A DNA stretch of 12,097 nucleotides from positions 1 to 12,097 of the forward strand of contig DRLF01000180.1 in NCBI GenBank assembly GCA_011051425.1, in the 5' to 3' direction. Below, one piece after another: positions 1 to 12,097 of the stretch. The notes under the pieces were generated by a model. The model saw nothing but the letters and a program-made list of their open reading frames with translations, had not been told where the DNA came from and did not search any database. Source of the stretch: Thiolapillus brandeum (GTDB lineage Bacteria > Pseudomonadota > Gammaproteobacteria > Chromatiales > Chromatiaceae). Position 1 is the first letter of the stretch, and every line of letters begins with the position of its first letter. The translations under genes were made by a program, and so were the position numbers.

Positions 1-1250
1 CCCAGTTTCTGTTTCGTCTCTTTCAGATAGTCGTCGGCAAAGGCACGCAATTCTGTCGCCAGGATGCTGTTCGGCGTATCCAGGCGGAGCTTTTTCAGTG
101 CCGGTATCTGGGGCAGCGGTGGCGCCGGGTTGCTCTTGTCCTTGCGGCTGATCTGCACACAGGCGCGGGCAGCAATCACAATGTCCACCAGGCTGGGGCT
201 GTTGCTGCCATGGTCGTACAGCCATTCCGTGGAGTCGCAGATATGCTGCGCCAGGGAATGGAAGATGTTCCAGTGCGACAGCACCATGCGGCCGGTTTCC
301 TTGCTGAACATCAGCGTGCATTCCTGCAGTTCCTGAGGTGAGATCTCGCGATAGAAATTGTAGGCGTAGCTGATGATGGTGATTTCACCGACATTGTGCA
401 GCAGGCCGGCCAGCTCGGCTTCACCCGGATCTTCCAGGTTCAGGTCCTCAGCCAGGCGTTTGGCAACAGCGGCAACGCATATGCTGCGTTCCCAGGCGTG
501 GGAAAAGGCTTCCTGCAGAATCAGCGCCCGGGGATCGCGCGATTCCCTGAAAAGGTTCATGAAGGCGAGCTTACGTGTTTTCTTTGGACCGATCTGTGAA
601 GTGGCGGAAATGATGTTGGGAACGGCGCCGCCAGGACGGTGCTGGAACTGGGCCATCTTGAGCAGCTTGAGGGACAGTACAGGGTCGAGCATGACCCATT
701 TGCCGATGGAGGCGGCAGTCCCGGAGGTTTCCATGATCTGACGGCTCACGCTCAGGGAAACAGGGTGCCAGGAGAGGATCATCAGCTTGTGCTTCTGCAG
801 ATCCTCATAGATATGGGCGACCATCTGGGCCGAGAAATCGGCGTTCTCCTCGCTGGTCTCCTCCACCAGATAGTGGGAGGAAATCATTTCCGAGGCATCG
901 TCCGGATCGGTCAGCTCTTCCAGCAGTGCATTGCTGATTTTTACATAGCTCACCGGGGTGAGGGCAGAAACGCGATAGCGGCTGGGTCGCAGGCGTGACA
1001 GGGGTGAACTGGCAGCGGCATCCGTGTGCTTGATGACGCGCTGACGCCCGTCTGCAGCCTCCATGAGCACATTGCCCTTGATCAGAAACAGGCTGAATTC
1101 TTCCGTATCACCCAGATCCATCAGTACGCTGCGCTTTTTTGCGTGCAGCCATTCCGCCTGGTCGACAATCTCCAGCAGCTTGTCATAAGACAGGTCTGAA
1201 AGGGGATTGAACCTGCGCAGTTCTTCGACGGATTTTTCAGTTGTGCTCAT
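1..1250 (-). CDS. HDOD-domain signalling protein with N-terminal cNMP-binding-like domain (partial, C-terminus off window)
   Basis: The reverse strand is open from ATG at 1250 to the left edge (416 complete codons), so the C-terminus is missing. A GGAG ribosome binding site lies at 1262-1265, and no longer in-frame start is plausible. Residues about 10-115 resemble the beta-roll of CRP-type effector domains, but the phosphate-binding cassette (FGE...R.A) is not recognisable, so cyclic nucleotide binding is doubtful. Residues about 155-350 look like an HDOD domain: a DP-LSLKLLKMA segment near 189-200, an AI-like helix near 215-220, and AGLLHNVG at 281-288. In related HD domains this last motif is LLHD; here it is H285-N286, so metal-dependent hydrolase activity is unlikely, as is usual for HDOD proteins. 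HDOD proteins act in bacterial signalling, often with c-di-GMP or stress circuits; the specific partner is unknown. It follows pyrD on the same strand after 67 bp, with its own likely promoter. Confidence 0.8.
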   Translation of the reverse strand, partial: MSTTEKSVEELRRFNPLSDLSYDKLLEIVDQAEWLHAKKRSVLMDLGDTEEFSLFLIKGNVLMEAADGRQRVIKHTDAAASSPLSRLRPSRYRVSALTPVSYVKISNALLEELTDPDDASEMISSHYLVEETSEENADFSAQMVAHIYEDLQKHKLMILSWHPVSLSVSRQIMETSGTAASIGKWVMLDPVLSLKLLKMAQFQHRPGGAVPNIISATSQIGPKKTRKLAFMNLFRESRDPRALILQEAFSHAWERSICVAAVAKRLAEDLNLEDPGEAELAGLLHNVGEITIISYAYNFYREISPQELQECTLMFSKETGRMVLSHWNIFHSLAQHICDSTEWLYDHGSNSPSLVDIVIAARACVQISRKDKSNPAPPLPQIPALKKLRLDTPNSILATELRAFADDYLKETKQKL

Positions 1251-1274
1251 CTGCGTCTTTTCTCCATTATTACC

Positions 1275-1280
1275 ATTATA
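1275..1280 (-). promoter_or_regulatory. Candidate -10 box for the HDOD gene
   Basis: A perfect TATAAT on the minus strand lies 24 bases before the HDOD start codon, in the 67-bp gap after pyrD. Transcription would begin near 1268, giving a leader of about 18 nt with the GGAG site at 1262-1265. No good -35 hexamer is seen 16-18 bp upstream, so the promoter would need an activator or be weak. The call is inferred from sequence only. Confidence 0.45.
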
Positions 1281-1317
1281 GGCGCAAATGACGCCGGGGA
1301 AATGATGGGGAGCAAGT

Positions 1318-2277
1318 TCAGCAGCCGCATTTTGCCGGGCCGGCTTCGTTCAGACGCAGACTGCCGGTAATCTGCCCCACTTCAGCCAGTTTGTTGCGTT
1401 CGAGGTAGTCCAGTATGCCGGCGTTGATCCTGGTGCAGATCAGCGGGTCGTAGAACAGGGCGGTGCCCACACCAACTGCACTGGCGCCGGCGATGAGAAA
1501 TTCCAGCGCATCCTCGGCGGTGGTGACGCCCCCCTGGCCGATAATGGGAATGCTGTGCTCCCTGGCCACCTGATATACCTGATGCACCTTGAGCAGGGCC
1601 ACGGGCTTGATGGCAGGGCCGGACAGTCCCCCCTGGTTGTTGCCGATGACCGGCGAGCGGCTTTCGATATCGATAGCCATGCCCATGAGCGTGTTGATCA
1701 CCGCCAGTGCGTCCGTGCCTGCATCGATACAGCGGCTGGCGTTGTAGGCGATGTCGGTCTGGTTGGGTGAGAGCTTTGTAATGAGAGGCTTGTCGGTGAC
1801 CTTGCGGCAGACTTCCACAACCCGGGCGGACATGTCCGGGTCGTTACCGAAAGCCACACCGCCTTCTTTCACATTGGGGCAGGAGATGTTGATCTCGATG
1901 GCATCGATGGGAGAGTCGTCAAACTTGCGGGTGACTTCTTCGTATTCCTCCAGGGTGGAGCCGGAGACATTGGCGATGAAGCGGGTTTCCCCGAAGTCCA
2001 GCTGGGGCAGGATGCGGGAAATGACCTCATCGACGCCGGGATTCTGCAGCCCGATGGCATTGAGCATGCCGCCGGGGGTTTCATAGACCCGGTGTGGTGC
2101 ATTGCCGGGACGTGCCGTGCCGGTGGTGCCTTTCAGGCAAACAGCACCGGCATCACGATTGGAGAATCCTTCCACACGGGTGTATTCTTCGCCGAAACCC
2201 ACACAACCGGATAGCAGCACCAGCGGTGTGTGAAACTTCAGTCCACAAAAATCCACGGCAAGCCGGGGGTCGCTCAT
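1318..2277 (-). CDS. pyrD: Dihydroorotate dehydrogenase, class 1B catalytic subunit type
   Basis: The product oxidises dihydroorotate to orotate in pyrimidine synthesis, using FMN, in the cytosol. The 319-residue protein matches the class 1 family: LKGTT at 48-52, the EINISCPNVKEGG segment at 128-140 with the class 1 catalytic cysteine C133, KLSPN at 168-172, the GGLSGPAIKPVAL segment at 216-228, and the FMN-phosphate loop GQGGV at 247-251. The run VINTLMGMAID (193-203) followed by GGLSGPAIKP is typical of the 1B (PyrDB) branch. Class 1B enzymes normally pair with PyrK, a FAD/2Fe-2S subunit, to pass electrons to NAD; no pyrK is in this window. Most gammaproteobacteria use the membrane class 2 enzyme, so this is atypical. 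The protein ends in CGC, an unusual cysteine tail. ATG at 2277 is preceded by GGAG on the minus strand. Divergent from trmL. Confidence 0.9.
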   Translation of the reverse strand: MSDPRLAVDFCGLKFHTPLVLLSGCVGFGEEYTRVEGFSNRDAGAVCLKGTTGTARPGNAPHRVYETPGGMLNAIGLQNPGVDEVISRILPQLDFGETRFIANVSGSTLEEYEEVTRKFDDSPIDAIEINISCPNVKEGGVAFGNDPDMSARVVEVCRKVTDKPLITKLSPNQTDIAYNASRCIDAGTDALAVINTLMGMAIDIESRSPVIGNNQGGLSGPAIKPVALLKVHQVYQVAREHSIPIIGQGGVTTAEDALEFLIAGASAVGVGTALFYDPLICTRINAGILDYLERNKLAEVGQITGSLRLNEAGPAKCGC

Positions 2278-2300
2278 AGTCAGGCTCCAGGGGGCAGATA

Positions 2301-2765
2301 GTGTTCAATCTTGTATTGTATCAGCCAGAGATACCCCCAAACACGGGAAATATCATCCGGCTGTGCGCAAATACCGGCTGCAGTCTGCACCTGATAAAGC
2401 CCCTGGGATTTGAGCTGGATCATTCACGCCTGAAGCGGGCTGGCCTGGATTATCACGAATTCGTGGGGGTGGTGCTGCATGATTCCTTTGCGGATATGCT
2501 CGAAAGCCTGGATCATCCGCGCGTATGGGCCTTCAGCACCAAAGGTGGCCCATCACATGCCAGTGTCGCCTATGAGCCCGGCGACGTGTTGCTGTTCGGT
2601 CCGGAAACCCGGGGGCTGCCGGCAGATATTCTGGGTGGTTTACCGGTGGGTCACTGTCTGCGGGTCCCCATGCTCCCGGAACAACGCAGCCTGAACCTGT
2701 CCAATGCGGCCTCGATCGTGGTGTACGAGGCCTGGCGTCAGCAGGGTTTTGCAGGGGCGGAATAG
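2301..2765 (+). CDS. trmL: tRNA (cytidine/uridine-34 2'-O)-methyltransferase TrmL
   Basis: TrmL (YibK) is a SPOUT-family enzyme that 2'-O-methylates the wobble base of tRNA-Leu isoacceptors using S-adenosylmethionine. The 154-residue protein is close to the E. coli length of 157. It starts with the family hallmark NLVLYQPEIPPNTGNIIRLC (residues 3-22), followed by RAGLDYHEF at 46-54. The trefoil-knot cofactor motifs FGPETRGLP (99-107) and RSLNLSNAASIVVYEAW (129-145) are intact. The start is GTG at 2301, with a purine-rich GGGGG run about 7-12 bases upstream. In E. coli trmL lies at the far end of the secB-gpsA-cysE operon on the same strand. Here it has the opposite orientation, converges on gpsA across 67 bp, and cysE is absent between them. 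Confidence 0.95.
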   Translation: MFNLVLYQPEIPPNTGNIIRLCANTGCSLHLIKPLGFELDHSRLKRAGLDYHEFVGVVLHDSFADMLESLDHPRVWAFSTKGGPSHASVAYEPGDVLLFGPETRGLPADILGGLPVGHCLRVPMLPEQRSLNLSNAASIVVYEAWRQQGFAGAE

Positions 2766-2821
2766 CAGATGCATATGGCTGCCGCGGTACTGGTGCGGGC
2801 GCCTCAGTTTCCAGGTCTGGA

Positions 2822-2835
2822 TGACCGGCCGGTCA
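2822..2835. repeat. Perfect 14-bp palindrome at the gpsA stop codon
   Basis: TGACCGGCCGGTCA is self-complementary and contains the gpsA stop codon (2833-2835). It sits in the convergent gap between trmL and gpsA. It has no loop and no T-tract on either side, so it is not a standard intrinsic terminator. It may be coincidence or a weak transcription-stop or protein-binding site. Confidence 0.35.
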
Positions 2836-3840
2836 GTCCTGTTCGGGTTTCTGTTCGCGGCCCAGCAGGGCTTTTACCGCGGCAGCCGGGTCCAGGCCCT
2901 TGTAGATGATGCGATAGACATGCTCGGTAATGGGCATTTCCACGCCAACATCCTGCGCCTTGACATGGAAATCCCTGGCCGCCGCCAGACCCTCCACCTC
3001 CTGTCCGATACGTTTTCTGGCTTCCTCGACGCCATGTCCGTCTGCCAGCGCCAGCCCCATGCGGCGGTTGCGTGACTGGTCGTCAGTGCAGGTCAGCACC
3101 AGGTCACCCAGGCCAGCCAGTCCCATGAAGGTGTCATGCTGGCCGCCCAGTGCCAGCCCCAGGCGGGTGATTTCCGCCAGGCCGCGGGTGATCAGTGCGG
3201 CGCGGGCGTTGGCGCCGAAACCCAGGCCGTCGGACATGCCGGCGGCGATGGCCATGACATTCTTGGCAGCACCGCCCACCTGCACGCCGATGATGTCGCT
3301 GGAGGTGTAGGCGCGGAAAGTGTCGCTGTGCAGGTAGTCCGCCAGCCGTGTGGCATGGGCAGTGCTGCTGGAGGCGACGGTGATGGCGGTGGGCAGGCCT
3401 CGGGCCACTTCCATGGCAAAGGTCGGCCCGGAGAGCACGGCGATATCTGCGTCCGGAAAGGTTTCCCGGGCCACCTCGCTCATGAGGCGCCGCTGTGCAG
3501 GCTCCAGACCCTTGGTCGCCCAGCTCAGGGATTTCAGTCCGGGGTTCAGCTTCCTGATCTGCTGCAGCACCGTGGCAAAGGCATGGCTGGGCACGACCAC
3601 CAGGATTTCATCGGCGCCGTTCAGGCATTCTGCAAGATCCGAGCTTGGTGACAGCAGCTCGGGAAAAGGGACGCCGGGCAGAAAATGCCTGTTTTCACGA
3701 TCCTGCCTCAGGGCGGCGATATCCTCTTCCAGGTGTCCCCACAGGCTGACCCTGTGGCCATTCCCGGCCAGCAGAATGCCGAGGGCTGTCCCCCAGGAAC
3801 CGGCACCCAGCACCGCGATCTTTGATCCGGAACCCGTCAT
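2833..3840 (-). CDS. gpsA: Glycerol-3-phosphate dehydrogenase [NAD(P)+]
   Basis: GpsA reduces dihydroxyacetone phosphate to sn-glycerol-3-phosphate, the backbone for phospholipid synthesis, in the cytosol. The 335-residue protein has the usual family length. The N-terminal Rossmann motif is IAVLGAGSWGTAL (8-20, GxGxxG at 12-17). WATKG at 108-112, LSGPTFAMEV at 136-145 and the GGAAKNVMAIAAG helix at 189-201 with catalytic-position K193 are all present, followed by the helical C-terminal domain with GLAGLGDLVLTC (240-251). It starts 9 bp after the secB stop codon, so the two are almost certainly cotranscribed. The ribosome binding site is weak (GAG about 9 bases upstream). In E. coli secB and gpsA have the same order; cysE, which follows there, is missing here. 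Confidence 0.96.
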   Translation of the reverse strand: MTGSGSKIAVLGAGSWGTALGILLAGNGHRVSLWGHLEEDIAALRQDRENRHFLPGVPFPELLSPSSDLAECLNGADEILVVVPSHAFATVLQQIRKLNPGLKSLSWATKGLEPAQRRLMSEVARETFPDADIAVLSGPTFAMEVARGLPTAITVASSSTAHATRLADYLHSDTFRAYTSSDIIGVQVGGAAKNVMAIAAGMSDGLGFGANARAALITRGLAEITRLGLALGGQHDTFMGLAGLGDLVLTCTDDQSRNRRMGLALADGHGVEEARKRIGQEVEGLAAARDFHVKAQDVGVEMPITEHVYRIIYKGLDPAAAVKALLGREQKPEQD

Positions 3841-3849
3841 GGATGTTGC

Positions 3850-4305
3850 TCAGTGTTCCGCCGGCGCCGCTTCCTGCTTCTGCTGCTGGATCTGCTGCGC
3901 ATACAGCGCTTCGAAATTCACAGGAGCCAGGAGGAACTGGGGGAAACTGCCGCGTGTGATCAGGTCGGACAGCACTTCTCTCACATAGGGAAAGAGCACG
4001 TTGGGACAATAGACGCCCAGCATGGGGCCCATTTCCTCTTCCGGAATGCCGCGTGCCAGGAAGATACCGGCCTGGGTGGCTTCTGCCAGGTAGGCCGTCT
4101 TGTCTTCGATCTTGGCGGTGATGGTAACGGTGAGGGAAACCTCGATGTTGCCTTCACCGAGATCCTTGACCGTGTTGTTCAGATTGACATTGATTTCCGG
4201 TTTCCACTCCTTCATGAAAATTTCGGGAGAATTGGGTGTCTCGAAGGAAATGTCTTTGGTGTAGATGCGCTGAATGGAAAACTGGCGCTGAACTTCTTCT
4301 GTCAT
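3850..4305 (-). CDS. secB: Protein-export chaperone SecB
   Basis: SecB is a cytosolic tetrameric chaperone that keeps preproteins unfolded and delivers them to SecA for Sec export. The 151-residue length matches the family (E. coli 155). Visible hallmarks are FSIQRIYTKDISFETPNSP (9-27), the WKPEINVNLN segment near 34-43, TYAYLAEATQAGIF-like residues (KTAYLAEATQAGIF, 69-82) and the LGVYCPNVLFPYVREVLSD segment (95-113). The acidic C-terminal tail ends AAPAEH and lacks the zinc-contact cysteine pattern of SecA, as expected. The start ATG at 4305 has an AGGA site 9 bases upstream. It lies 29 bp downstream of the rhodanese gene; many relatives carry grxC in this gap, here absent. SecB is largely proteobacterial, which supports the assigned phylum. 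Confidence 0.97.
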   Translation of the reverse strand: MTEEVQRQFSIQRIYTKDISFETPNSPEIFMKEWKPEINVNLNNTVKDLGEGNIEVSLTVTITAKIEDKTAYLAEATQAGIFLARGIPEEEMGPMLGVYCPNVLFPYVREVLSDLITRGSFPQFLLAPVNFEALYAQQIQQQKQEAAPAEH

Positions 4306-4334
4306 GAGTGTGTTCCTGAATTGAGAGATAAAAA

Positions 4335-4757
4335 TTATCGGCGTTTGACGGGCAGCCCGGCACTTTCCCAGGCCATCATGCCGCCGCGGAGATTGTGTAC
4401 CTCCCCGAAACCGGCTTTCATGAGGGTCTTGCAGGCCATACCGGAACGGGAACCGGAGCGGCAGGCAACGATGACGGGCTTGTCTTTGTACTTTTCGAGC
4501 TGTTGCAGCTGCTTGGCCAGGCCGTTCAGCGGTATGTTGACCGCATTGACGATATGGCCTTTGTTGAATTCGGCGATTGAGCGTACATCGACGACTACCG
4601 CGTCATCGTGATTGATGAGGGCGGTGCTTTGCAGTGCATCGACCGCTGTCTTGTTGACAGGGTCGAAAAAGATGTTCCAGATCAGCGCTCCGGACAGTGC
4701 CAGAAAAGTGATGACCAGGAGCAGATGATTGGTGATGAATTCTGCCAGTTGTTCCAT
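4335..4757 (-). CDS. yibN: Membrane-anchored rhodanese (YibN-like)
   Basis: This is a single-domain rhodanese tethered to the inner membrane, likely a sulfurtransferase or sulfane-sulfur carrier. I chose ATG at 4757 (140 residues). A longer frame could begin with TTG at 4802, but those 15 codons overlap a TATAAT box, and the E. coli relative is also about 143 residues. Residues about 11-31 form one hydrophobic segment (HLLLVITFLALSGALIWNIF). The rhodanese fold follows: VVVDVRS (54-60), F-KGHI (64-69), and the active-site loop CRSGSRSG with C99, then a conserved GGMMAWE near the end. E. coli YibN lacks a standard cysteine loop here, so this copy may be catalytically competent where YibN is not. 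It heads the secB-gpsA operon. The symbol reflects position and architecture rather than proven orthology. Confidence 0.87.
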   Translation of the reverse strand: MEQLAEFITNHLLLVITFLALSGALIWNIFFDPVNKTAVDALQSTALINHDDAVVVDVRSIAEFNKGHIVNAVNIPLNGLAKQLQQLEKYKDKPVIVACRSGSRSGMACKTLMKAGFGEVHNLRGGMMAWESAGLPVKRR

Positions 4758-4790
4758 ACGAATTTCGTATCTCGCGGAAAAAAGAGCGTA

Positions 4791-4796
4791 ATTATA
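4791..4796 (-). promoter_or_regulatory. Candidate -10 box for the yibN-secB-gpsA operon
   Basis: A perfect TATAAT lies on the minus strand 33 bases before the chosen rhodanese start. Transcription would begin near 4784, leaving a leader of about 27 nt. The -35 position (4814-4819) reads CCGCCT, a poor match, and lies inside a GC-rich dyad at 4808-4820. The placement argues against the longer TTG start at 4802. Confidence 0.5.
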
Positions 4797-4807
4797 GCGC
4801 AACTTTC

Positions 4808-4820
4808 CCCGCGAGGCGGG
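4808..4820. repeat. Short GC dyad between arsR and yibN
   Basis: CCCGC-GAG-GCGGG forms a 5-bp stem with a 3-base loop, in the 97-bp gap after the arsR stop. On the minus strand it is followed by GAAAG rather than a T-tract, so it is at best a weak terminator for arsR. It coincides with the -35 region of the candidate yibN promoter and could also be a binding site. Confidence 0.3.
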
Positions 4821-4854
4821 TTTCGATGGAATCGCCGGGATTCAGAGGCTGCCC

Positions 4855-5211
4855 CTACTGGGCGTGGGTGCAGAATACCTGGCGCATCATGTCGATGAGC
4901 TGCAGCGTGCGGGCGTCGGCAACCCGGTAGAAGACCCTGTTGGCGTCCTTGCGGGCATCCAGAATGCCCTTGTCGCGTAAAATGGCCAGGTGCTGTGAGA
5001 TATTGCTTTGGGAAGAGCCGACCTTGGCGACGATGTCATGCACGCTGACTTCATCTTCCCCCAGGGTGCAGAGAATCTTCAGTCGCAGGGGATGGGACAT
5101 GGCTTTCAGGGCGCGGGAGGCACGTTCGATATCGCCATCATCCTGCATCAGCGCCATGCTTTCGCCGAATTCCTGAATCTTGTTTTTTCGTGAGGAAACC
5201 AAAGTCTTCAC
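4855..5211 (-). CDS. ArsR-family repressor, two-cysteine BigR/SqrR/YgaV/HlyU type
   Basis: A 118-residue winged-helix DNA-binding protein. Residues 32-50 (SRALKAMSHPLRLKILCTL) and the recognition helix region SSQSNISQHLAILRD (66-80), followed by the wing ARKDANRVFYRV (86-97), are typical ArsR. The metal box ELCVCD of ArsR/SmtB is replaced by EVSVHD (54-59), so arsenic or cadmium sensing at that site is unlikely. C48 and C114 fall at the two positions that form a disulfide or polysulfide bridge in SqrR/BigR and that are conserved in YgaV and HlyU. I therefore infer a sensor of sulfide-derived persulfide or of oxidants. The GTG start at 5211 has GGAGAGGTGG just upstream. An internal ATG at residue 19 would give a 100-residue protein like YgaV, but its ribosome site is poor. 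It stands between the two conserved halves of the locus, upstream of the rhodanese operon. The regulated genes are unknown. Confidence 0.88.
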   Translation of the reverse strand: MKTLVSSRKNKIQEFGESMALMQDDGDIERASRALKAMSHPLRLKILCTLGEDEVSVHDIVAKVGSSQSNISQHLAILRDKGILDARKDANRVFYRVADARTLQLIDMMRQVFCTHAQ

Positions 5212-5222
5212 AAACCACCTCT

Positions 5223-5283
5223 CCAGTTTACTGGGAAACCTCCAGATCGGGACCGGGGATACGCGGCTCGATCAGAGGTTTCC
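5223..5283 (-). promoter_or_regulatory. Structured arsR leader: long hairpin plus small dyad over the ribosome site
   Basis: GGAAACCTC (5234-5242) pairs perfectly with GAGGTTTCC (5275-5283). Inside it, GATCG (5245-5249) pairs with CGATC (5268-5272), so one stem stacks on the other. Next to it, CCAGT-TT-ACTGG (5223-5234) forms a second small hairpin whose arm abuts the GGAG ribosome site of arsR. Transcripts of arsR starting upstream would carry both. No T-tract follows on the minus strand, so a terminator is unlikely. It could be a translational control element, a repressor-binding dyad, or chance. Confidence 0.4.
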
Positions 5284-5340
5284 TTTGGTTACATGAGTTC
5301 TTAATAACACACTAATAGAATAATACACTGTTTTACTGTG
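5284..5340. promoter_or_regulatory. AT-rich control region between arsR and gpmI
   Basis: This stretch is much more AT-rich than its surroundings and carries TTCTTAATAACACACTAATA-like sequence with a loosely symmetric TTCT...AGAA pair (5298-5320), plus a direct repeat ACTGT-TTT-ACTGT (5326-5338). It is where the arsR promoter and an autoregulatory operator would be expected, but I cannot assign clear -35/-10 pairs. The remainder, 5341-5421, holds nothing I recognise. Confidence 0.3.
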
Positions 5341-5421
5341 GGAACTGCAAGGGAAATCTCGGTTTCGGGCATTATTCCTCCTTATCTCGTGGATATGCAG
5401 AACGAGTCGTGCAACAAATTC

Positions 5422-5430
5422 TGGTAAAAT
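5422..5430 (+). promoter_or_regulatory. Candidate extended -10 promoter for gpmI-envC-ctpA
   Basis: TGGTAAAAT fits an extended -10 (TGn followed by TAAAAT). No convincing -35 is present 17 bp upstream. If active, the RNA would start near 5437 and run through the palindromic element before reaching gpmI, giving a structured leader of about 200 nt. Confidence 0.33.
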
Positions 5431-5443
5431 GGCAGGTTCTTTA

Positions 5444-5603
5444 GGGAATCGCTGATTAAATCTGGGCGAAGCAGATTGTGCCCTGCGCATTCGAGAACAA
5501 GGCGAAGTTCGCAGCCAATAGTATGCTATTGGCAAGAACTTCAACGCAGTTATCGGATGCGCCGGGTGCAAAATGCGAGTTCATGATTTATTCATCGGTT
5601 CCT
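5444..5603. mobile_element. 160-bp MITE-like palindromic element flanked by TA
   Basis: The ends are inverted repeats: GGGAATCGCTGATTAAATC (5444-5462) against AGGAACCGATGAATAAATC read from the other strand (5585-5603), 15 of 19 identical. Both ends abut a TA dinucleotide (5442-5443 and 5604-5605), as expected for target duplication by IS630/Tc1-mariner-type transposases. The interior is also an imperfect inverted repeat: TGCGCATTCGA near 5484-5494 mirrors TCGGATGCGCC near 5552-5562, GAAGTTC (5504-5510) mirrors GAACTTC (5536-5542), and CCAATAG (5515-5521) mirrors CTATTGG (5526-5532). All centre on 5523-5524. It encodes no protein. It is a non-autonomous element or a family of dispersed palindromic repeat; a parent transposase is not in view. 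It lies 34 bp before gpmI. Confidence 0.75.
5504..5542. repeat. Central hairpin of the palindromic element
   Basis: Two nested perfect 7-bp stems, GAAGTTC/GAACTTC and CCAATAG/CTATTGG, are separated by a short mismatch and capped by TATG. This would form a stable cruciform in DNA or hairpin in RNA. No T-tract follows on either strand, so it is not a standard intrinsic terminator. Confidence 0.7.
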
Positions 5604-5637
5604 TAACCCGTAAATACCTGTCAGTGAGTCCCTGGAA

Positions 5638-7212
5638 ATGAAAGACACCCCCCGTCCTGTAGTACTGATCATCCTCGATGGCTGGGGATTACGCGAGGAA
5701 GCGGAAAACAACGCCATTGCCGCGGCCCGTACGCCGGTATGGGACCGCCTCTGGAACGAGGGAGCACACACTGCGCTGGAAACCTCGGGTTCGGCGGTCG
5801 GTCTGCCCAGCGGGCAGATGGGCAATTCCGAGGTCGGACACCTGAATCTGGGCAGCGGCCGGGTCGTGTATCAGGAATTCACCCGCGTCAGCCGCTCCAT
5901 CCGTACCGGTTCGTTCTTCAGCAATGCAACGCTGACCGGCGCCGTGGATATTGCCGTGGACAATGATGCAGCCGTACATATCCTGGGACTGCTTTCCCCC
6001 GGCGGTGTGCATTCCCATGAAGAGCACATCCATGCCATGGTCAAACTGGCTGTGGATCGTGGCGCCAAAAAGGTGTTCGTGCATGCCTTTCTCGACGGGC
6101 GTGATATGCCGCCGAAAAGCGCCATGCCTTCATTGCAGGCCATGGACAAGGTGTTCGGGGAACTGGGTGCCGGTCGCATCGCCAGTATCATCGGGCGCTA
6201 TTTCGCCATGGACAGGGACCATCGCTGGGAACGCATCCAGAAAGCCTATGATCTGATCACCCTGGGCAAGGCAGCCTACACGGCGACCACCGCCGAAGAA
6301 GGGCTGGAAATGGCCTATGCGCGGGGCGAGACCGATGAGTTCGTGGATGCCACGGCCATTGTGCCGGAAGGTGGAGAGAAGGTCACCGTGAGAGACGGTG
6401 ACGTGATCATCAACATGAACTACCGTTCCGACCGTGCCAGGCAGATCACCCGGGCCTTCATCGAAAAGGATTTCGATGCCTTTCACCGGGAAGTGGTGCC
6501 CGACCTGGGTACTTTCGTCAGCCTCACGGAATACAACAAGGAATGGGATATCCCTGTCGCCTTTCCTGCAGAGCGGCTGGAAAATGTTTTCGGCGAATAC
6601 ATCTCCAAACTGGGTCTGCACCAGCTGCGCCTCGCGGAGACGGAGAAATATGCCCATGTAACCTTTTTCTTCAACGGCGGACAGGAGCAGCCGTTCGAGG
6701 GAGAAGACCGCATACTCGTGCCTTCTCCGGATGTGGCGACGTACGATCTCAAACCGGAAATGAGCGCACCGGAAGTGACCGATCACCTGGTGCAGGCCAT
6801 CGAAGAGGGCAAGTACGACGCCATCATCGTCAACTATGCCAATGGCGACATGGTGGGACATACGGGCAAATTTGATGCAGCCGTGCAGGCGGTGGAAACG
6901 CTGGATCACTGTCTGGGGCGGGTGACGCGCGCCATTCACAAGGTCGGTGGCGCGATGCTGGTGACGGCAGATCACGGCAATTGTGAAAAAATGCTGGATG
7001 AGGAAACCGGGCAGCCCTATACCGCCCACACGACCACGCCGGTGCCCCTGGTGTATGTGGGCGACCGTCACGCCCGCCTCATCGATGGCGGCGCCCTTTG
7101 TGATGTGGCGCCCACGCTGCTCAAGATCATGGGGCTGCCACAGCCGGCGGAAATGACAGGCCATCCACTGATACAGTTCGAAGACGAAGAACAGGAGCCC
7201 GAAACCAACTGA
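5638..7212 (+). CDS. gpmI: 2,3-bisphosphoglycerate-independent phosphoglycerate mutase
   Basis: GpmI interconverts 3- and 2-phosphoglycerate in glycolysis and gluconeogenesis, with two Mn ions and a phosphoserine intermediate. The 524-residue protein is of normal length. LIILDGWG (10-17) gives metal ligand D14, and [18 protein letters not shown] (58-75) gives the phosphorylated S64. The other metal ligands appear in family spacing: D404 and H408 in NGDMVGH, D445-H446 in [10 protein letters not shown], and H464 in [10 protein letters not shown]. The insert domain with HSHEEHI and FLDGRD is present. The start ATG at 5638 has only a weak purine stretch before it. The stop codon overlaps the envC start (TGATG, one base shared), implying translational coupling. 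E. coli and Pseudomonas have the same gpmI-envC order. Confidence 0.98.
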
Positions 7213-8372
7213 TGCGGCTTGCGCAGCTCATCCTTTGTGGTTTGCTGGCAGTTGCGGGCTCATTTTCGCAGGCGCAGGAAAACGGCAAGGACGAGCAGCA
7301 GCGTACCGAAGAAAAGCGCGAGCAGCTGCGGCAGAGCATCGCCCGCCTGCAGGACAGCATCCGCAAGACTCAAAAAGAAAAGGACAGTCTCAGTGCGGAA
7401 CTGGCGGATTCGGAGCGTGAGATCGGGGCTATCATTGCCCATCTGAACAGGCTGCAGCAAAAACAGCAGTCCCTGGGCCGCAAGCTCGCCGGTCTCAGGC
7501 GCCGTCAGGGCGACCTGCAGCAGCATCTCGAAACCAGCCGCCGCAAGCTTGCACTGTTGCTGCGTTCCGCCTACATGACCGGACGTGAGGAGCGGCTCAA
7601 ACTGTTCCTCAATCAGCAGGATCCTGCCGCCCTGAGCCGTCTGCTCGCCTACCATGACTACATCAGCCGGGCGCGGACGAAGCAGTTGCAGCTGTTGAGT
7701 CAGGACCTGGAAAGTCTGCGAAGCCTCACCCGGCAGATCGGGGAAGAACAGTCCCGGCTCGACCGTTTACACGCGCAGCAACAGACCCGCAAGGAACAGC
7801 TGGTAAAACACCAGCAACAGCGAAAATCTTTGCTGAAGCAGGTCGACGCCCGCCTGCAGCAGCAGGGTGAAAAGCTGGCGCGCTGGCAGGAAGACGAGCG
7901 CCGCCTGGCGGGTTTGCTCAAGGATCTGCAGAGCGCCCTGCATTCCCTGGAGCTGCCGGAACAAAAGGGTTTCCGGGAGAGCAGGGGACAACTCAGCTGG
8001 CCGGTGAGAGGGCGGCTGCGTAAGACCTTTGGCGCCCAGAAAATCGGTAACTTGCGTTGGGACGGGGTTATAATCGGTGCCAAAGAAGGCGCCGAGGTGC
8101 GCACCATTCATGCAGGGCGGGTGGCCTGGGCCGACTGGCTGCGCGGTTATGGGTTGCTCATCATCGTGGAGCATGGTGACGGTTTCATGAGTCTGTACGG
8201 AAACAATCAGAGCCTGTTCAAGGAAACGGGAGACTGGGTGGAGGCCGGTGAGATCATCGCCCAGGCCGGTGCGGGTGAAGGTCACGCGAAGTCCGGTGTT
8301 TATTTCGGCATACGTTACCAGGGCAAGGCGCTCAATCCCGTACGCTGGTGCAAAAGGCGCGCCAGGCGCTAG
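7212..8372 (+). CDS. envC: EnvC-like murein hydrolase activator (degenerate LytM/M23 domain)
   Basis: EnvC is a periplasmic septal factor that, in E. coli, is recruited by FtsEX and activates the amidases AmiA and AmiB to split the septum. The 386-residue product begins with a signal peptide (hydrophobic 5-17, probable cleavage SQA|QE after residue 21). Residues about 25-110 and 155-245 are long Q/R/E/L-rich coiled coils, separated by a short segment around YMTGREERLKLFLNQ (121-135), which is conserved in EnvC/NlpD-like activators. The LytM domain covers about 262-380. Its zinc-binding residues are lost: the usual HxGxD is RWDG (282-285), the YxH region is YGNN (329-332), and the final HLHFE is VYFGIR (363-368). 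It is therefore an activator rather than a peptidase, as in E. coli. It is translationally coupled to gpmI. Confidence 0.94.
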   Translation: MRLAQLILCGLLAVAGSFSQAQENGKDEQQRTEEKREQLRQSIARLQDSIRKTQKEKDSLSAELADSEREIGAIIAHLNRLQQKQQSLGRKLAGLRRRQGDLQQHLETSRRKLALLLRSAYMTGREERLKLFLNQQDPAALSRLLAYHDYISRARTKQLQLLSQDLESLRSLTRQIGEEQSRLDRLHAQQQTRKEQLVKHQQQRKSLLKQVDARLQQQGEKLARWQEDERRLAGLLKDLQSALHSLELPEQKGFRESRGQLSWPVRGRLRKTFGAQKIGNLRWDGVIIGAKEGAEVRTIHAGRVAWADWLRGYGLLIIVEHGDGFMSLYGNNQSLFKETGDWVEAGEIIAQAGAGEGHAKSGVYFGIRYQGKALNPVRWCKRRARR

Positions 8373-8419
8373 CGGCCGGTTACCCGGGTTCAATTACGGT
8401 TACATACAGAGACACTGAC

Positions 8420-9715
8420 ATGAGCAAGTGGACAAACAGATTTATCCTATGGGGCTGTCTTGCGCTGCTCCCGTTTTCCGCCTCTTTCGCCAGGGAAACG
8501 CCGGCGGAAGACAAGGGGCTGCCCCTAAAAGAGCTGAGAATCTTTGCAGAAGTATTCGGGCGGGTACAACAGGATTACGTGGAGCCGGTCACCGACCGGG
8601 AACTGCTGGATCATGCCATTCGCGGCATGCTGGAAGGACTGGATCCCCATTCCGCCTATCTGGACGAGGAGCATTTCAAGGAACTGCAGGAAGGAACCAG
8701 CGGTGAGTTTGGCGGCCTTGGCATTGAAGTAGGCGTGGAAGACGGCTTCATCAAGGTGATTTCTCCCATCGATGATACGCCTGCGCAAAAGGCGGGCATT
8801 CAGGCAGGCGACCTGATCATCCGGCTGAACGGCAAGCCGGCCAAGGGGATGAGCCTCAGTGAAGCGGTGAAGATCATGCGCGGCAAGCCGGGCACCAGTA
8901 TCAAGCTAACCGTACAGCGCAGTGGCGAACACAAACCCCTGGAATTCGATATCACACGTGCGGTGATCAAGCAGGCCAGCGTGAAATCCCGGATGCTGGA
9001 GCCCGGTTTCGCCTACGTGCGTCTGGCCCAGTTCCAGGCGCCCACTGCGGACGATATGCTGCGTGCCATCCGTGCTTTGCAAAAGAAATCCGGCGGTTCT
9101 CTCAAGGGGCTGGTGCTGGATCTGCGCAACAACCCCGGGGGCGTGCTCCAGGGCGCAGTCGCGGTGAGCGACGCCTTCCTGGAAAAAGGCCTGATCGTCT
9201 ACACGCAAGGGCGGGGAGAAGGCTCGGCGCTGAAGTTCAATGCCCGCCCCGGTGATGTGCTCAACGGCGCCCCCCTGGTCGTGCTGGTCAACGAAGGTTC
9301 GGCATCGGCTTCAGAAATCGTTGCCGGTGCGCTGCAGGATCACAAGCGGGCTGTGATCATGGGGCGGACCACCTTCGGCAAGGGCTCGGTACAGACCATC
9401 GTGCCCATCAGCAGCAAGATCGCTATCAAACTGACGACAGCCAGGTACTACACACCCAGCGGCCGCTCCATACAGGCTGAAGGCATTCAGCCGGATATCG
9501 AGCTGAGCAAGGTAAAGCTCAAGGAGCTGAAAAAGAGCCTGCTGCAGGTCAAGGAAGCGGATCTGGCTGATCATCTGGCCAATCCGGACAAGAAAAAGCA
9601 GAAAAAGAAGAATGGCAAGCAGGGCAATGGCGGCAAGAAACTGCTGGAGGAAGATTACGAGCTGAATGAGGCCCTGAATCTTCTCAAAGGTATTTCCATT
9701 TTCAGCAAAAGATAG
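8420..9715 (+). CDS. ctpA: Carboxyl-terminal processing protease (S41 family, PDZ)
   Basis: CtpA is a periplasmic serine protease with a Ser/Lys dyad. I start it at ATG 8420 (431 residues) because a signal peptide follows at once (hydrophobic 9-22, probable cleavage SFA|RE after 24); a GTG at 8348 would overlap envC and bury that signal. The PDZ domain lies at about 97-170 (GGLGIEV, AGIQAGDLIIRLNG). In the S41 domain, NEGSASASEI carries nucleophile S296, and FGKGSVQT carries K321, the same 25-residue spacing as in E. coli Prc. Residues about 391-410 form a lysine-rich low-complexity insert near the C-terminus. In Pseudomonas aeruginosa CtpA partners with a lipoprotein adaptor to degrade peptidoglycan hydrolases, and I recall it lying just after gpmI-envC as here. 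The 47-bp gap after envC has no terminator, so it likely belongs to the same operon. Confidence 0.94.
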   Translation: MSKWTNRFILWGCLALLPFSASFARETPAEDKGLPLKELRIFAEVFGRVQQDYVEPVTDRELLDHAIRGMLEGLDPHSAYLDEEHFKELQEGTSGEFGGLGIEVGVEDGFIKVISPIDDTPAQKAGIQAGDLIIRLNGKPAKGMSLSEAVKIMRGKPGTSIKLTVQRSGEHKPLEFDITRAVIKQASVKSRMLEPGFAYVRLAQFQAPTADDMLRAIRALQKKSGGSLKGLVLDLRNNPGGVLQGAVAVSDAFLEKGLIVYTQGRGEGSALKFNARPGDVLNGAPLVVLVNEGSASASEIVAGALQDHKRAVIMGRTTFGKGSVQTIVPISSKIAIKLTTARYYTPSGRSIQAEGIQPDIELSKVKLKELKKSLLQVKEADLADHLANPDKKKQKKKNGKQGNGGKKLLEEDYELNEALNLLKGISIFSKR

Positions 9716-9744
9716 AACAGGTTCCGTTTTTTCACCAAATCAGA

Positions 9745-9754
9745 CAGTAAACTG
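9745..9754. repeat. CAGTAAACTG dyad upstream of the DJ-1 gene
   Basis: CAGT-AA-ACTG is a small inverted repeat 18 bases before the DJ-1 start codon, followed by ACTTTT. The same ten bases occur inverted at 5224-5233 in the arsR leader. A shared 10-mer is expected by chance in a window this size, so it is recorded only because both copies are in short intergenic control regions. Confidence 0.25.
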
Positions 9755-9772
9755 ACTTTTGGAGGGTAGGCT

Positions 9773-10327
9773 ATGGCGCGTGTACTGGTGCCTTTGGCGC
9801 AGGGCTGTGAAGAACTGGAGGCGGTAAGCATCATCGATCTGCTGCGGCGGGCCGGTGTGGAAGTCGTTACCGCCGGTCTGGCGGATGGCCCGGTGACCTG
9901 CAGCCGCGGTGTGGTCATCGTGCCTGATGCCACGCTGGATGATGTGCTGGACGGCGATTTCGACATGATCGTGCTGCCTGGCGGATTGCCCGGCGCCGAC
10001 CATCTGGACGCGGATGCGCGCATACAGCGCCTCCTGAAACAGATGGCGCAGCAGGGGAAGTACACGGTGGCTATCTGCGCGGCGCCCAAGGTGCTGGCAA
10101 GCGCGGGCTTGTTGCAGGGCAGGCAGGCGACCTCTTATCCGGGCGTTATCGATGCCATGGGACTGGCGGATACCCGTTATCTGGACCAGCCTGTCGTGAC
10201 GGATGGCAAGGTCATCACTTCACGCGGGCCGGGCACGGCCATGGATTTTGCCCTGGAATTGATCGAAAAACTGGTGGGTGCGGAGCAGCGACAGACCGTG
10301 GAGGCGTCACTGGTGCGCCCGGACTGA
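9773..10327 (+). CDS. DJ-1/PfpI-superfamily protein, YajL-like
   Basis: A 184-residue cytosolic protein of the DJ-1/ThiJ/YajL family. Family members are linked to oxidative stress and carbonyl detoxification; glyoxalase or deglycase activity has been claimed but is debated. E16 in GCEELEA and the nucleophile-elbow C102 in AICAAPKVL correspond to DJ-1 E18 and C106. TCSRGVV (42-48) keeps the DJ-1 C46 position (C43), while the C53 position is V50. The late TSRGPGTAMDFALELI segment matches DJ-1 and YajL closely. It has a strong GGAGG site at 9761-9765, 7 bases before ATG. The 57-bp gap after ctpA contains no convincing terminator, so readthrough from ctpA is possible. In relatives this position is often held by yibQ (polysaccharide deacetylase), which is absent here. 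Confidence 0.92.
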   Translation: MARVLVPLAQGCEELEAVSIIDLLRRAGVEVVTAGLADGPVTCSRGVVIVPDATLDDVLDGDFDMIVLPGGLPGADHLDADARIQRLLKQMAQQGKYTVAICAAPKVLASAGLLQGRQATSYPGVIDAMGLADTRYLDQPVVTDGKVITSRGPGTAMDFALELIEKLVGAEQRQTVEASLVRPD

Positions 10328-10349
10328 CACAAACGACAGGGGTGGCAAG

Positions 10350-11744
10350 GTGAGGAGACGGGGGAATATCTGGGTATGGCTGATCGGGATGCCCATCATT
10401 TTCTGGGCGATCGCCCATTGGGGCTTCTACTATTATGTAAAGACCAAACTGGATGAGGCCGTTCTACAGGCCGCGCCCCAGGCAGATATCAGGTACTCGG
10501 AACTCGAGACCAGTCTCAGCGGGAAGATAACCGTACGTGGCATTCATATCGTTCCTGTGGGAACAGACCAGGGTATTTCCATTCAGTCCGTGCACGTCCA
10601 GGGGCCGGATGCACTGTCGTATCTCATGCGGCATATTCCCCAGCTTGGCGACAGCGGTCCGCCCGACAAGATCAATGTCGTGGTGAAAGGTGTTGAAGTC
10701 GATATCTCGGGCAACCGTGCCGGCAAGCTGGATCGCTTCAGTGAGAGCGCCGGCTACAGGAAGGTCGATGGCAAACCCCGGGATATCTGTGAAGTGGGCA
10801 GCGGCGCCTCCTTCACCCAGTTGCAGGAGCTCGGTTTCGACAGGCTCCAGGGTGAAATGAAAATGGGCTATCAGTATTTCCCCGGTTCCAGGAAGCTGTA
10901 CATGGATTTCGACATGGATGTAAAGGGTATGCAGCAGCTTTCTCTCTCCATGAGCCTCGACAATGTACCGGCGCTGGACCCGCAAAAAATGCTGGGTGTC
11001 CTGCTGAGCAATTTGAAACTCGAGTATGTCTATTCTCCCCGGTTCGGCCAGAAAGTCGTGGAATACTGCGCGCAGAAACGCGGTGTGTCGCCGGATGATT
11101 TCAAGCTGCTCATGGCCGATGACACTTTACGGCAGCTTGAGAAAAACGGCCTGGTGCTGGGTTTTGGTCTGAAGCATGCACTCAAGAGCTTCCTGAACAA
11201 CTGGGGGACACTGCTGGTGGAGCTCAGTCCGCCTCGTCCGGTAGGGTTCTTCGAACTGGCGCAACTGCCCAAGGATCAGGTCGCCGAAAAGCTGGGGCTG
11301 CAACTGGCGGTCAACGACGCGCTGGTCACCGATCTGAGCTTCCGGATTCTGGAGGGTATGTCCCTGATACGGCGCAACAACGCGGCAGACAGGAAAACCA
11401 GGAAACTGCCGCCGAAGGTCGAATACGTCTGGGAATACCGCAAGGTGCCGGTGGGACAGTTGTCCGCTTATCTCGACCACCTGGTCGTCATCAGGGATCG
11501 AGACGGTGTCGTCCACAAGGGCATACTCAGTGAGGTTTCCAACGGCCGGATTTCCATTCTCAAGCGCATCAGCGGTGGGAAGTTTACCGCGCATCTGGTG
11601 CGAAGCAATGTGGTTTCAGCCCAGGCCCGGGTGCGGGTGAAGGTGGAACAGCCGAAATCAGCGCCGCAGCAGACTGTTCCCGAGAAGGCCGATGCCGGCA
11701 ATGCCCAGGCCACCGCTGAACAGGGGCAGCAGGCCGGCGGATAA
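10350..11744 (+). CDS. Unrecognised membrane-anchored envelope protein
   Basis: I do not recognise this 464-residue protein. GTG at 10350 is preferred: it has AGGGG 7 bases upstream and puts a short RRR cap before one transmembrane segment (about 7-25). An earlier GTG at 10278 would overlap the DJ-1 gene by 50 bases and add 24 unstructured residues. By the positive-inside rule the rest lies in the periplasm. Residues about 31-130 ([27 protein letters not shown]) resemble the N-terminal repeats of AsmA/YdgA-like proteins. The middle, about 160-340, is rich in beta strands and amphipathic helices, with only two cysteines overall (C147, C240), which could form a disulfide. Residues about 374-428 ([21 protein letters not shown]) look like a small Sm/SH3-type barrel. 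The last 30 residues are A/Q-rich. The gene follows the DJ-1 gene after 22 bp, probably cotranscribed. Function unknown. Confidence 0.8.
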
Positions 11745-12097
11745 CAGGGGTGTGCCCAGGCTGGCGAGCAGGGCAGCACTGATCAGAAGGGCGCCTCCCG
11801 CAATGCTTTGCCGGGTGCGGCTTTGTCCGGCGTTCATTTCCCGGCGCAGGGCGCTCAGTTCTTCCGAATGCCAGTTCAGGCGCAGCTTGCCTTCCTCAGC
11901 GTTCTTCAGCACCCGGTAGGCGAGGCGTGGAATCTCCGGCAGTTGCTCAGACATCTGCGGCAGCGATTCCCTGACGCGGCGTACGAAAGCCTTGGGGCCC
12001 ACTTGCTGGGACAGCCATTTTTCCATGAAAGGCTTGGCCGTGGCCCACAGATCCAGCTCGGGATAGAGCATGCGTCCCAGTCCCTCGATGTTCAGCA
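11658..12097 (-). CDS. ubiB: C-terminal part of UbiB-like ubiquinone biosynthesis protein (partial)
   Basis: The reverse strand is open from the right edge to TGA at 11658, giving the last 145 complete codons (146 with the stop). [23 protein letters not shown] followed by a basic amphipathic stretch is the typical end of the UbiB/ABC1 atypical kinase domain, where the family reads LxxEG.gR.L.P.LD...... Two hydrophobic segments close the protein, about [18 protein letters not shown] and [22 protein letters not shown], matching the C-terminal membrane anchor of UbiB. UbiB is an ADCK-like ATPase required for ubiquinone synthesis. The kinase core lies outside the window. The last 87 bases overlap the convergent unknown gene; they encode the second hydrophobic segment, so the stop position is credible. 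A later internal ATG at 12071 is not the start, since the frame stays open beyond it. Confidence 0.85.

Follow-up and report, generated by a model that had tools for sequence, protein, structure and literature searches.

A short palindromic mobile element with IS5-type ends and a structurally conserved interior hairpin upstream of gpmI in Thiolapillus brandeum

We analysed a palindromic element that lies directly upstream of gpmI in Thiolapillus brandeum (contig DRLF01000180.1, positions 1–12,097; this whole stretch of 12,097 nucleotides is called the window). The features of the locus, in window coordinates, were as follows.

5422–5430, plus strand: extended −10-like box TGGTAAAAT of the presumed gpmI promoter, just 5' of the element
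5441–5444, plus strand: left target-site duplication TTAG, 3/4 identical to the right copy
5445–5602 (158 bp), plus strand (the strand of the best fold): miniature inverted-repeat element (MITE), single-core form, matched by covariance model R1
5445–5462, plus strand: left terminal inverted repeat GGAATCGCTGATTAAATC, 15/18 against the right end
5476–5571, plus strand: core hairpin (model positions 32–127), from core-only R1 matches elsewhere
5585–5602, minus strand: right terminal inverted repeat GGAACCGATGAATAAATC, 15/18 against the left end
5603–5606, plus strand: right target-site duplication TTAA, from copy comparison and the flank test
5638–7212, plus strand: gpmI, 2,3-bisphosphoglycerate-independent phosphoglycerate mutase (TIGR01307, E 7.5e-224)

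Divergently from gpmI, the minus strand at 4855–5211 encodes an ArsR/SmtB-type regulator, for which the best NCBIfam match was HTH_metalloreg, followed by BigR below its cut-off. Between this ArsR-like gene and gpmI, positions 5270–5283 (GATCAGAGGTTTCC) resemble the remnant end of another copy of the element; R1 gave no match there.

The symmetry of the element was assessed by pairing its two halves and by folding. At 5444, 49 of 80 ungapped half-positions paired, compared with a window mean of 20.6 (SD 4.2) and a highest value of 37 away from the neighbourhood of the element. Folded as single-stranded DNA, the palindrome reached −40.4 kcal/mol (z −6.4), and none of 200 shuffles folded as well. 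These results confirm that the palindrome at 5444–5603 is genuine and far above chance, as the first-pass annotation had proposed from its full-length symmetry and from 19-bp ends matching at 15/19 positions, a count that we reproduced. That annotation gave the element 160 bp; the palindrome stands, but the copies place both boundaries one base inward, at 5445–5602. The element covers model positions 1–158 of R1, with 167.7 bits on the plus strand and 60.6 on the minus strand, scores to be read with the window copy itself partly included in the training set. The sole listed open reading frame of at least 80 aa over the element is a TTG-start, 99-aa minus-strand frame (5272–5571) that extends past it; none is confined to the element, which agrees with its earlier description as non-coding. 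A repeat search with default seeds detected none in this region.

To follow the element beyond the window, we searched its own genome and the genus by blastn, as had been suggested earlier, and with R1, which was built from 19 copies of nine genus genomes. The own genome (G000) contained a 93%-identical copy that runs off the end of contig C283, as well as a long form of 205 bp (C425:2242–2446, L003). Copies or fragments, some of them short, were found by blastn in 13/14 other genomes of the genus; those in G003 and G011 were merely 36–44 bp pieces, plus one weak full-span match in G011. With R1, matches were obtained in 15/15 genus genomes (E up to 1e-3), with totals of, for example, 74 in G008 and 64 in G007, in which some palindromes are counted on both strands and some matches are partial. 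Facing end pairs lying within 5 kb of each other numbered 21 in G008 (at most 2 mismatches), and every pair was spaced 159–161 bp apart. Long forms of about 200–205 bp with extra sequence in the apical loop (L180–L183, L185) were also seen, and the long forms, L003 among them, occur with both end types described below. Two copies in G009 and G001 (L012, L026) have a common right flank and differing left flanks, as if one side had been rearranged. One exact 31-position pattern of the element gave five stretches in genome contigs, of which the records label one Sedimenticola sp. and four Lysobacterales; no match was found in viral contigs searched with that pattern, in plasmids searched with the window sequence and one class copy, or in phages searched with one class copy. 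The element is thus short, multi-copy, non-coding and bounded by terminal inverted repeats, as a MITE should be, and the duplications and empty sites reported below bear out its earlier identification as one.

We next compared the flanks of the insertions. From 56 near-full copies, 53 were aligned (long ones omitted) and 55 entered the duplication test (one duplicate removed). Among the 39 insertions whose ends do not start with GGC, 22 carried the same 4 bp on either side, mostly YTAR (under shuffled pairing, a mean of 4.3 and a maximum of 12 in 2000). A second subfamily with GGC-starting ends (GGGCACCTCTATTAATTC) had its boundary one base further out and identical 4-bp flanks in 14/16 insertions (shuffled: mean 4.0, maximum 9). 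In the wider set of 78 copies from the genus, family and class, the 4-bp flanks were identical in 40 (shuffled: mean 9.6, maximum 19), and TTAA, TTAG and CTAA were the commonest sites. The window element itself, with TTAG and TTAA, has an imperfect 4-bp duplication (3/4). The first-pass annotation had read the flanking TA as the duplication and assigned the element to IS630/Tc1-mariner. The TA is indeed present, but as the middle of a 4-bp site. The 2-bp flanks at the boundary drawn in that annotation matched in 27/39 insertions (shuffled: mean 12.6, maximum 20) and in 57/78 copies of the wider set (shuffled: mean 34.8, maximum 45), which would suit a TA duplication; this register exceeds its shuffles because the true 4-bp repeat surrounds the TA, so that exact 4-bp repeats count there too. 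A duplication of TA and no more is not what the element shows, and it leaves the exact 4-bp repeats in 22/39 and 40/78 copies unexplained. Since flank identity extends to 4 bp and the ends match the IS5 family, IS630/Tc1-mariner mobilisation was rejected, and we consider it very improbable.

The ends point instead to IS5. The left terminal repeat is of the type found at the ends of three IS5-family insertion sequences (DDE_Tnp_1 + DUF772, NF033581) in other genera of the family: L112 (1227 bp, CTAG on both sides, 4/4), L111 (1227 bp, CTAA/TTAA, 3/4) and L104 (1181 bp, CTTA on both sides, 4/4, not strictly YTAR). L104 was detected by PF05598; the transposase of L111 belongs to NF033581 (E 1.2e-100) and carries PF05598 and PF01609. 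One end of the C425 copy in the own genome was identical to one L112 end over 18 nt. The element has the GGRA-type ends and the 4-bp YTAR duplication of the IS5 group, and the match of its ends to IS5-family insertion sequences together with the 4-bp duplications therefore identifies it as a MITE of IS5 type. These sequence comparisons give good support for its mobility by such a route.

With the searches used, neither the own genome (84% complete) nor the genus yielded a transposase with matching ends, so the autonomous partner in the same genome that is looked for in a MITE is missing here. The L111 protein, searched against all 15 genus genomes, gave merely 25–29% identity matches, in 2/15. 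Neither PF01609 in 10/15 genus genomes nor PF05598 in 96 family genomes (three of them in the genus) recovered a matching-end transposase within the genus, and a scan of G008 for end pairs (at most 2 mismatches) gave no autonomous copy. G008 does hold an IS5_4 element of 1017 bp (L083) with subfamily-2-like ends (GGCACCTCTAAAAATTC) and no clean duplication. Partners with element-type ends are present in other genera of the family, where one genome (G020) also has fold matches; of the two genomes whose ends match best, that holding L111 (G063) had no fold match in the family search, and that holding L112 (G110) was not among the positives. Separately, one 3.4-Mb genome (G113) contained 53 DUF772 transposase matches, a number of them in 378-aa frames.

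To determine whether the position of the element is conserved, we compared the upstream region in all 14 genus genomes with a gpmI match (14/15, window included). By eye, the −10-like box reads TAAAAT or TAGAAT in 13/14 regions and TAGACT in the other; a consensus scan found no promoter or terminator and did not recover the box. R1 copies occurred in 3/14 gpmI loci only, namely the window, G013 and G005. The copies in G013 (flanked left and right by TTAA) and in G005 (about 190 bp 5' of the gpmI ATG) both precede the −10-like box, at sites other than that of the window, and the gpmI region has therefore been struck at least three times. The window insertion was missing from the other 13 regions, as an empty-site comparison proposed earlier was meant to reveal. 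In G011, G005, G010 and G006, the sequence to the right of the insertion aligned straight to an uninterrupted leader; a few extra bases beside the element on the left make the empty-site join good but not base-perfect. Conservation of the element as a regulator of gpmI would accord with its leader position in the window and with the copies upstream of gpmI in G013 and G005, but the scarcity of such copies and their differing sites speak against it. We regard that reading as next to impossible, and the empty sites rule it out.

In the window, the element lies between the −10-like box and the ATG, which probably places it in the gpmI leader. Were the box the gpmI promoter, the element would begin a few bases past the start site; the gpmI mRNA would then carry the hairpin as its 5' leader, with possible effects on mRNA stability or translation. 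As RNA, positions 5438–5660 folded at −91.1 kcal/mol (z −7.1). A regulatory side effect on gpmI is possible, in the window strain alone.

To examine the interior, we used three alignments: A1 (26 copies) and A2 (19), hand-picked from the near-full copies, and A3, whose 86 matches come from 85 chosen loci and comprise 78 distinct copies. The R1 fold, sometimes as the core only, was present in 91/194 family genomes and 33/61 genera (E up to 1e-4). Across the class it was found in 87/369 genomes, 70/272 genera and about 60 family labels (hand count), and across the phylum in 49/398 genomes, 36 of them outside the class, of which 33 belong to one family. The structure spans one class and part of a second. 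The best matches were full-length and nearly all 157–161 bp, and matches of 174–206 bp and core-only matches also occurred. In a plain MAFFT alignment of the 26 copies, double compensatory changes were seen at 41/61 predicted pairs. Among the 78 distinct copies, whose alignment was fitted to R1 and so leans to the model, 96.3% of cells paired and 52/62 pairs had double changes, with shuffled and slid controls far off: 723 double-change cells versus 183 shuffled, and a covariation score of 0.505 versus 0.188 shuffled and at most 0.087 slid. Compensatory changes have preserved a single, specific long hairpin in the interior, and these results strongly support selection on the fold. That the fold is kept while its letters change suggests that the fold itself is used for something. 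Searches of Rfam 15 gave nothing above the gathering score for the window or for five loci with class and family copies; nine further loci gave four matches of 25–30 bits, all far below the gathering scores.

Long quasi-palindromes are corrected by template switching, and arm-to-arm switching might by itself uphold the palindrome, the compensatory changes then being mutational and without function. Over all columns, conservation was equal in unpaired (0.808) and paired (0.796) positions, the outermost internal loop being variable, as such a process would allow. The core behaves otherwise: its internal loops (AA/GCA, GC/AA and GCA/AA, with GA/GA further out) remain unpaired and are mostly 0.9–0.99 conserved rather than erased, and the middle stem (30 paired columns), conserved at only 0.64, is still paired. 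Conserved loops beside a variable but paired stem are easier to reconcile with a fold whose loops are recognised than with passive correction of a palindrome. Template switching also expects as many G.T as A.C mismatches, which is not what was seen, and as the whole explanation we find it improbable.

Strand polarity was assessed by aligning every element with its reverse complement, a comparison in which G.T and A.C count equally. Where orientation came from sequence homology alone (26 copies), G.T amounted to 136.5 and A.C to 52.5, with a G.T excess in 23/26, and the plus strand gave the better RNA fold in 24/26; the two exceptions (L054, L039) have the weakest plus-strand folds of all 26. 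The 78 wider copies were oriented by R1, a procedure that favours G.U and thereby this outcome; there, G.T was 437 versus 149 for A.C, G.T was in excess in 77/78, and the plus strand folded better in 78/78 (RNA mean −84.5 versus −62.8; with DNA parameters, mean −40.6 versus −33.2). The G.T excess and the better plus-strand fold indicate that one strand seems to be used single-stranded, for which RNA is the simpler reading. We also examined 40 hand-chosen copies of G007 and G008 with crude ORF calls; 5/40 lay inside a called frame, and in the 31 that had called genes to the left and right, at distances up to about 400 bp, no orientation preference was seen (++ 6, −− 7, −+ 10, +− 8). A cis effect on host mRNAs is therefore not supported in general.

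Alternatively, selection might act on the fold in single-stranded DNA, as it arises in replication, transfer or excision; a DNA enzyme would then recognise it, and RNA would have no role. The strand preference holds with DNA parameters too (78/78), the copies have no gene-orientation bias, sheared G.A and GNA loops are stable in DNA, and four of the five double-core elements folded (see below) give a cross. Wobble pairs, however, are weaker in DNA and yet are kept in most copies (for example, U.G in 56/78 at columns 82/153), and IS5-type ends with duplications indicate ordinary double-strand transposition. On balance, we judge selection as DNA unlikely, and use of the fold as RNA is likely.

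The core hairpin was also found behind other ends. Core-only matches (about model positions 32–127) led to elements of 266–270 bp; this length holds for every one of the 15 loci (of 20 fetched) where the search covered both ends. Their ends are unrelated and include AGAGCCTGTT, GAACGTGTTTACGATC, AGTGCCCTGTCCC and TATACCCAAGTGACTTCAAG; 3–4 mismatches were allowed at the right ends and 0–3 were seen. The genus form of this double-core element has 282–286 bp of shared sequence. Of the five elements folded, four gave a cross (an end stem and two hairpins) and L322 folded otherwise. In 6/20 loci (L320, L321, L322, L324, L330, L335), R1 also gave a weak match (E 1e-5 to 0.04) to the second hairpin, on the opposite strand; in the genus copies the antisense motif was seen by eye only, and it was undetected in the remaining loci. 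In all, double-core palindromes of about 266–286 bp holding the window core were recorded in L174 (968–1252), L175–L179 and L320–L337. In G876, a single-core match (L333, 54–212) adjoins a double-core element. L176 (1–878) and L179 (125–1001), in G007, share 878 bp at 99% identity; this stretch abuts a double-core element and presumably carries an IS110-like frame, an arrangement that recalls IS1111 beside QMITE2.

What chiefly speaks for treating the core as an independent mobile module of structured RNA or single-stranded DNA, captured by several unrelated end types and spread over Pseudomonadota, is the arrangement of a sense and an antisense core behind different ends. With its two cores in opposite senses, such an element would yield a working copy whichever strand is transcribed. 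If this were true, the module would exist in two forms, a single-core form of about 158–160 bp with IS5-type ends and a double-core form of about 267 bp, and would be a selfish or host-used structured RNA hitch-hiking on transposases. We advance it tentatively, at somewhat less than an even chance.

Taken together, the results are best explained by a non-autonomous, IS5-mobilised MITE that carries a structurally selected hairpin, probably acting as RNA (probability roughly 0.7). An IS5-family transposase would move the element in trans by binding its 18-bp ends. Most likely, the fold would serve as RNA once the element is transcribed: a host double-strand RNA factor, for instance RNase III, could bind or cleave it, or it could act as a stabiliser, and this use may help the element to persist.

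Our literature search returned related MITEs and no description of this element family, and three element strings were unmatched; with copies across the genus, the repeat family, earlier suspected to be undescribed, apparently is so. Among known systems, insertion sequences of the IS5 group (NF033581) share the GGRA... ends and the mostly YTAR 4-bp duplication. Unlike them, the element has no transposase, shows by eye no similarity to L104 or L112 past its ends, and has a core that occurs behind other ends too. REP/REPIN sequences, which RAYT moves, are palindromes of 20–40 nt (PMC3733652, as far as the available part of the source goes), and membership was rejected for an element of 158 nt with 4-bp duplications.

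Correia elements are linked in print to TA duplications and IS630, in which they differ from the element. The accessible part of one report describes Correia/nemis of Neisseria as a small palindromic MITE whose transcripts are cut by RNase III, with one copy directly downstream of the mtrCDE promoter (PMC10969869). By description, the element is likewise a small palindromic MITE, with its window copy just 3' of a presumed promoter; a covarying interior is not mentioned in that part of the report (PMC10969869). QMITE2 of Coxiella burnetii is described in the available text as 150–190 bp long with a strong hairpin and 7–11-bp duplications, with 83–100-nt relatives in other classes and with IS1111 beside many small copies (PMC5896051); by this description, its size and strong hairpin are similar to those of the element, and its duplications differ from the 4 bp here. 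The MITE in the dsrA intron of Ca. Thiomargarita nelsonii forms a large hairpin and has TATAG-flanked, mainly intergenic copies, and its authors found no strong parent insertion sequence, according to the part of the source available (PMC4853749). Several subfamily-2 copies here have TATA-type flanks, comparable to that TATAG. Kinship with the Thiomargarita and Coxiella MITEs is possible by analogy, the likeness being one of published description in the portions available.

Short palindromic MITEs with RNA hairpins are an already known kind. MITE interiors are usually treated as decaying filler. Here, a MITE interior has strong structural covariation over much of a class, strand polarity and recurring loop motifs, and it is met again behind unrelated ends, which adds a large structured-element family unrecognised by the Rfam searches made here and makes testable what a gene-less mobile element gains from a fold.
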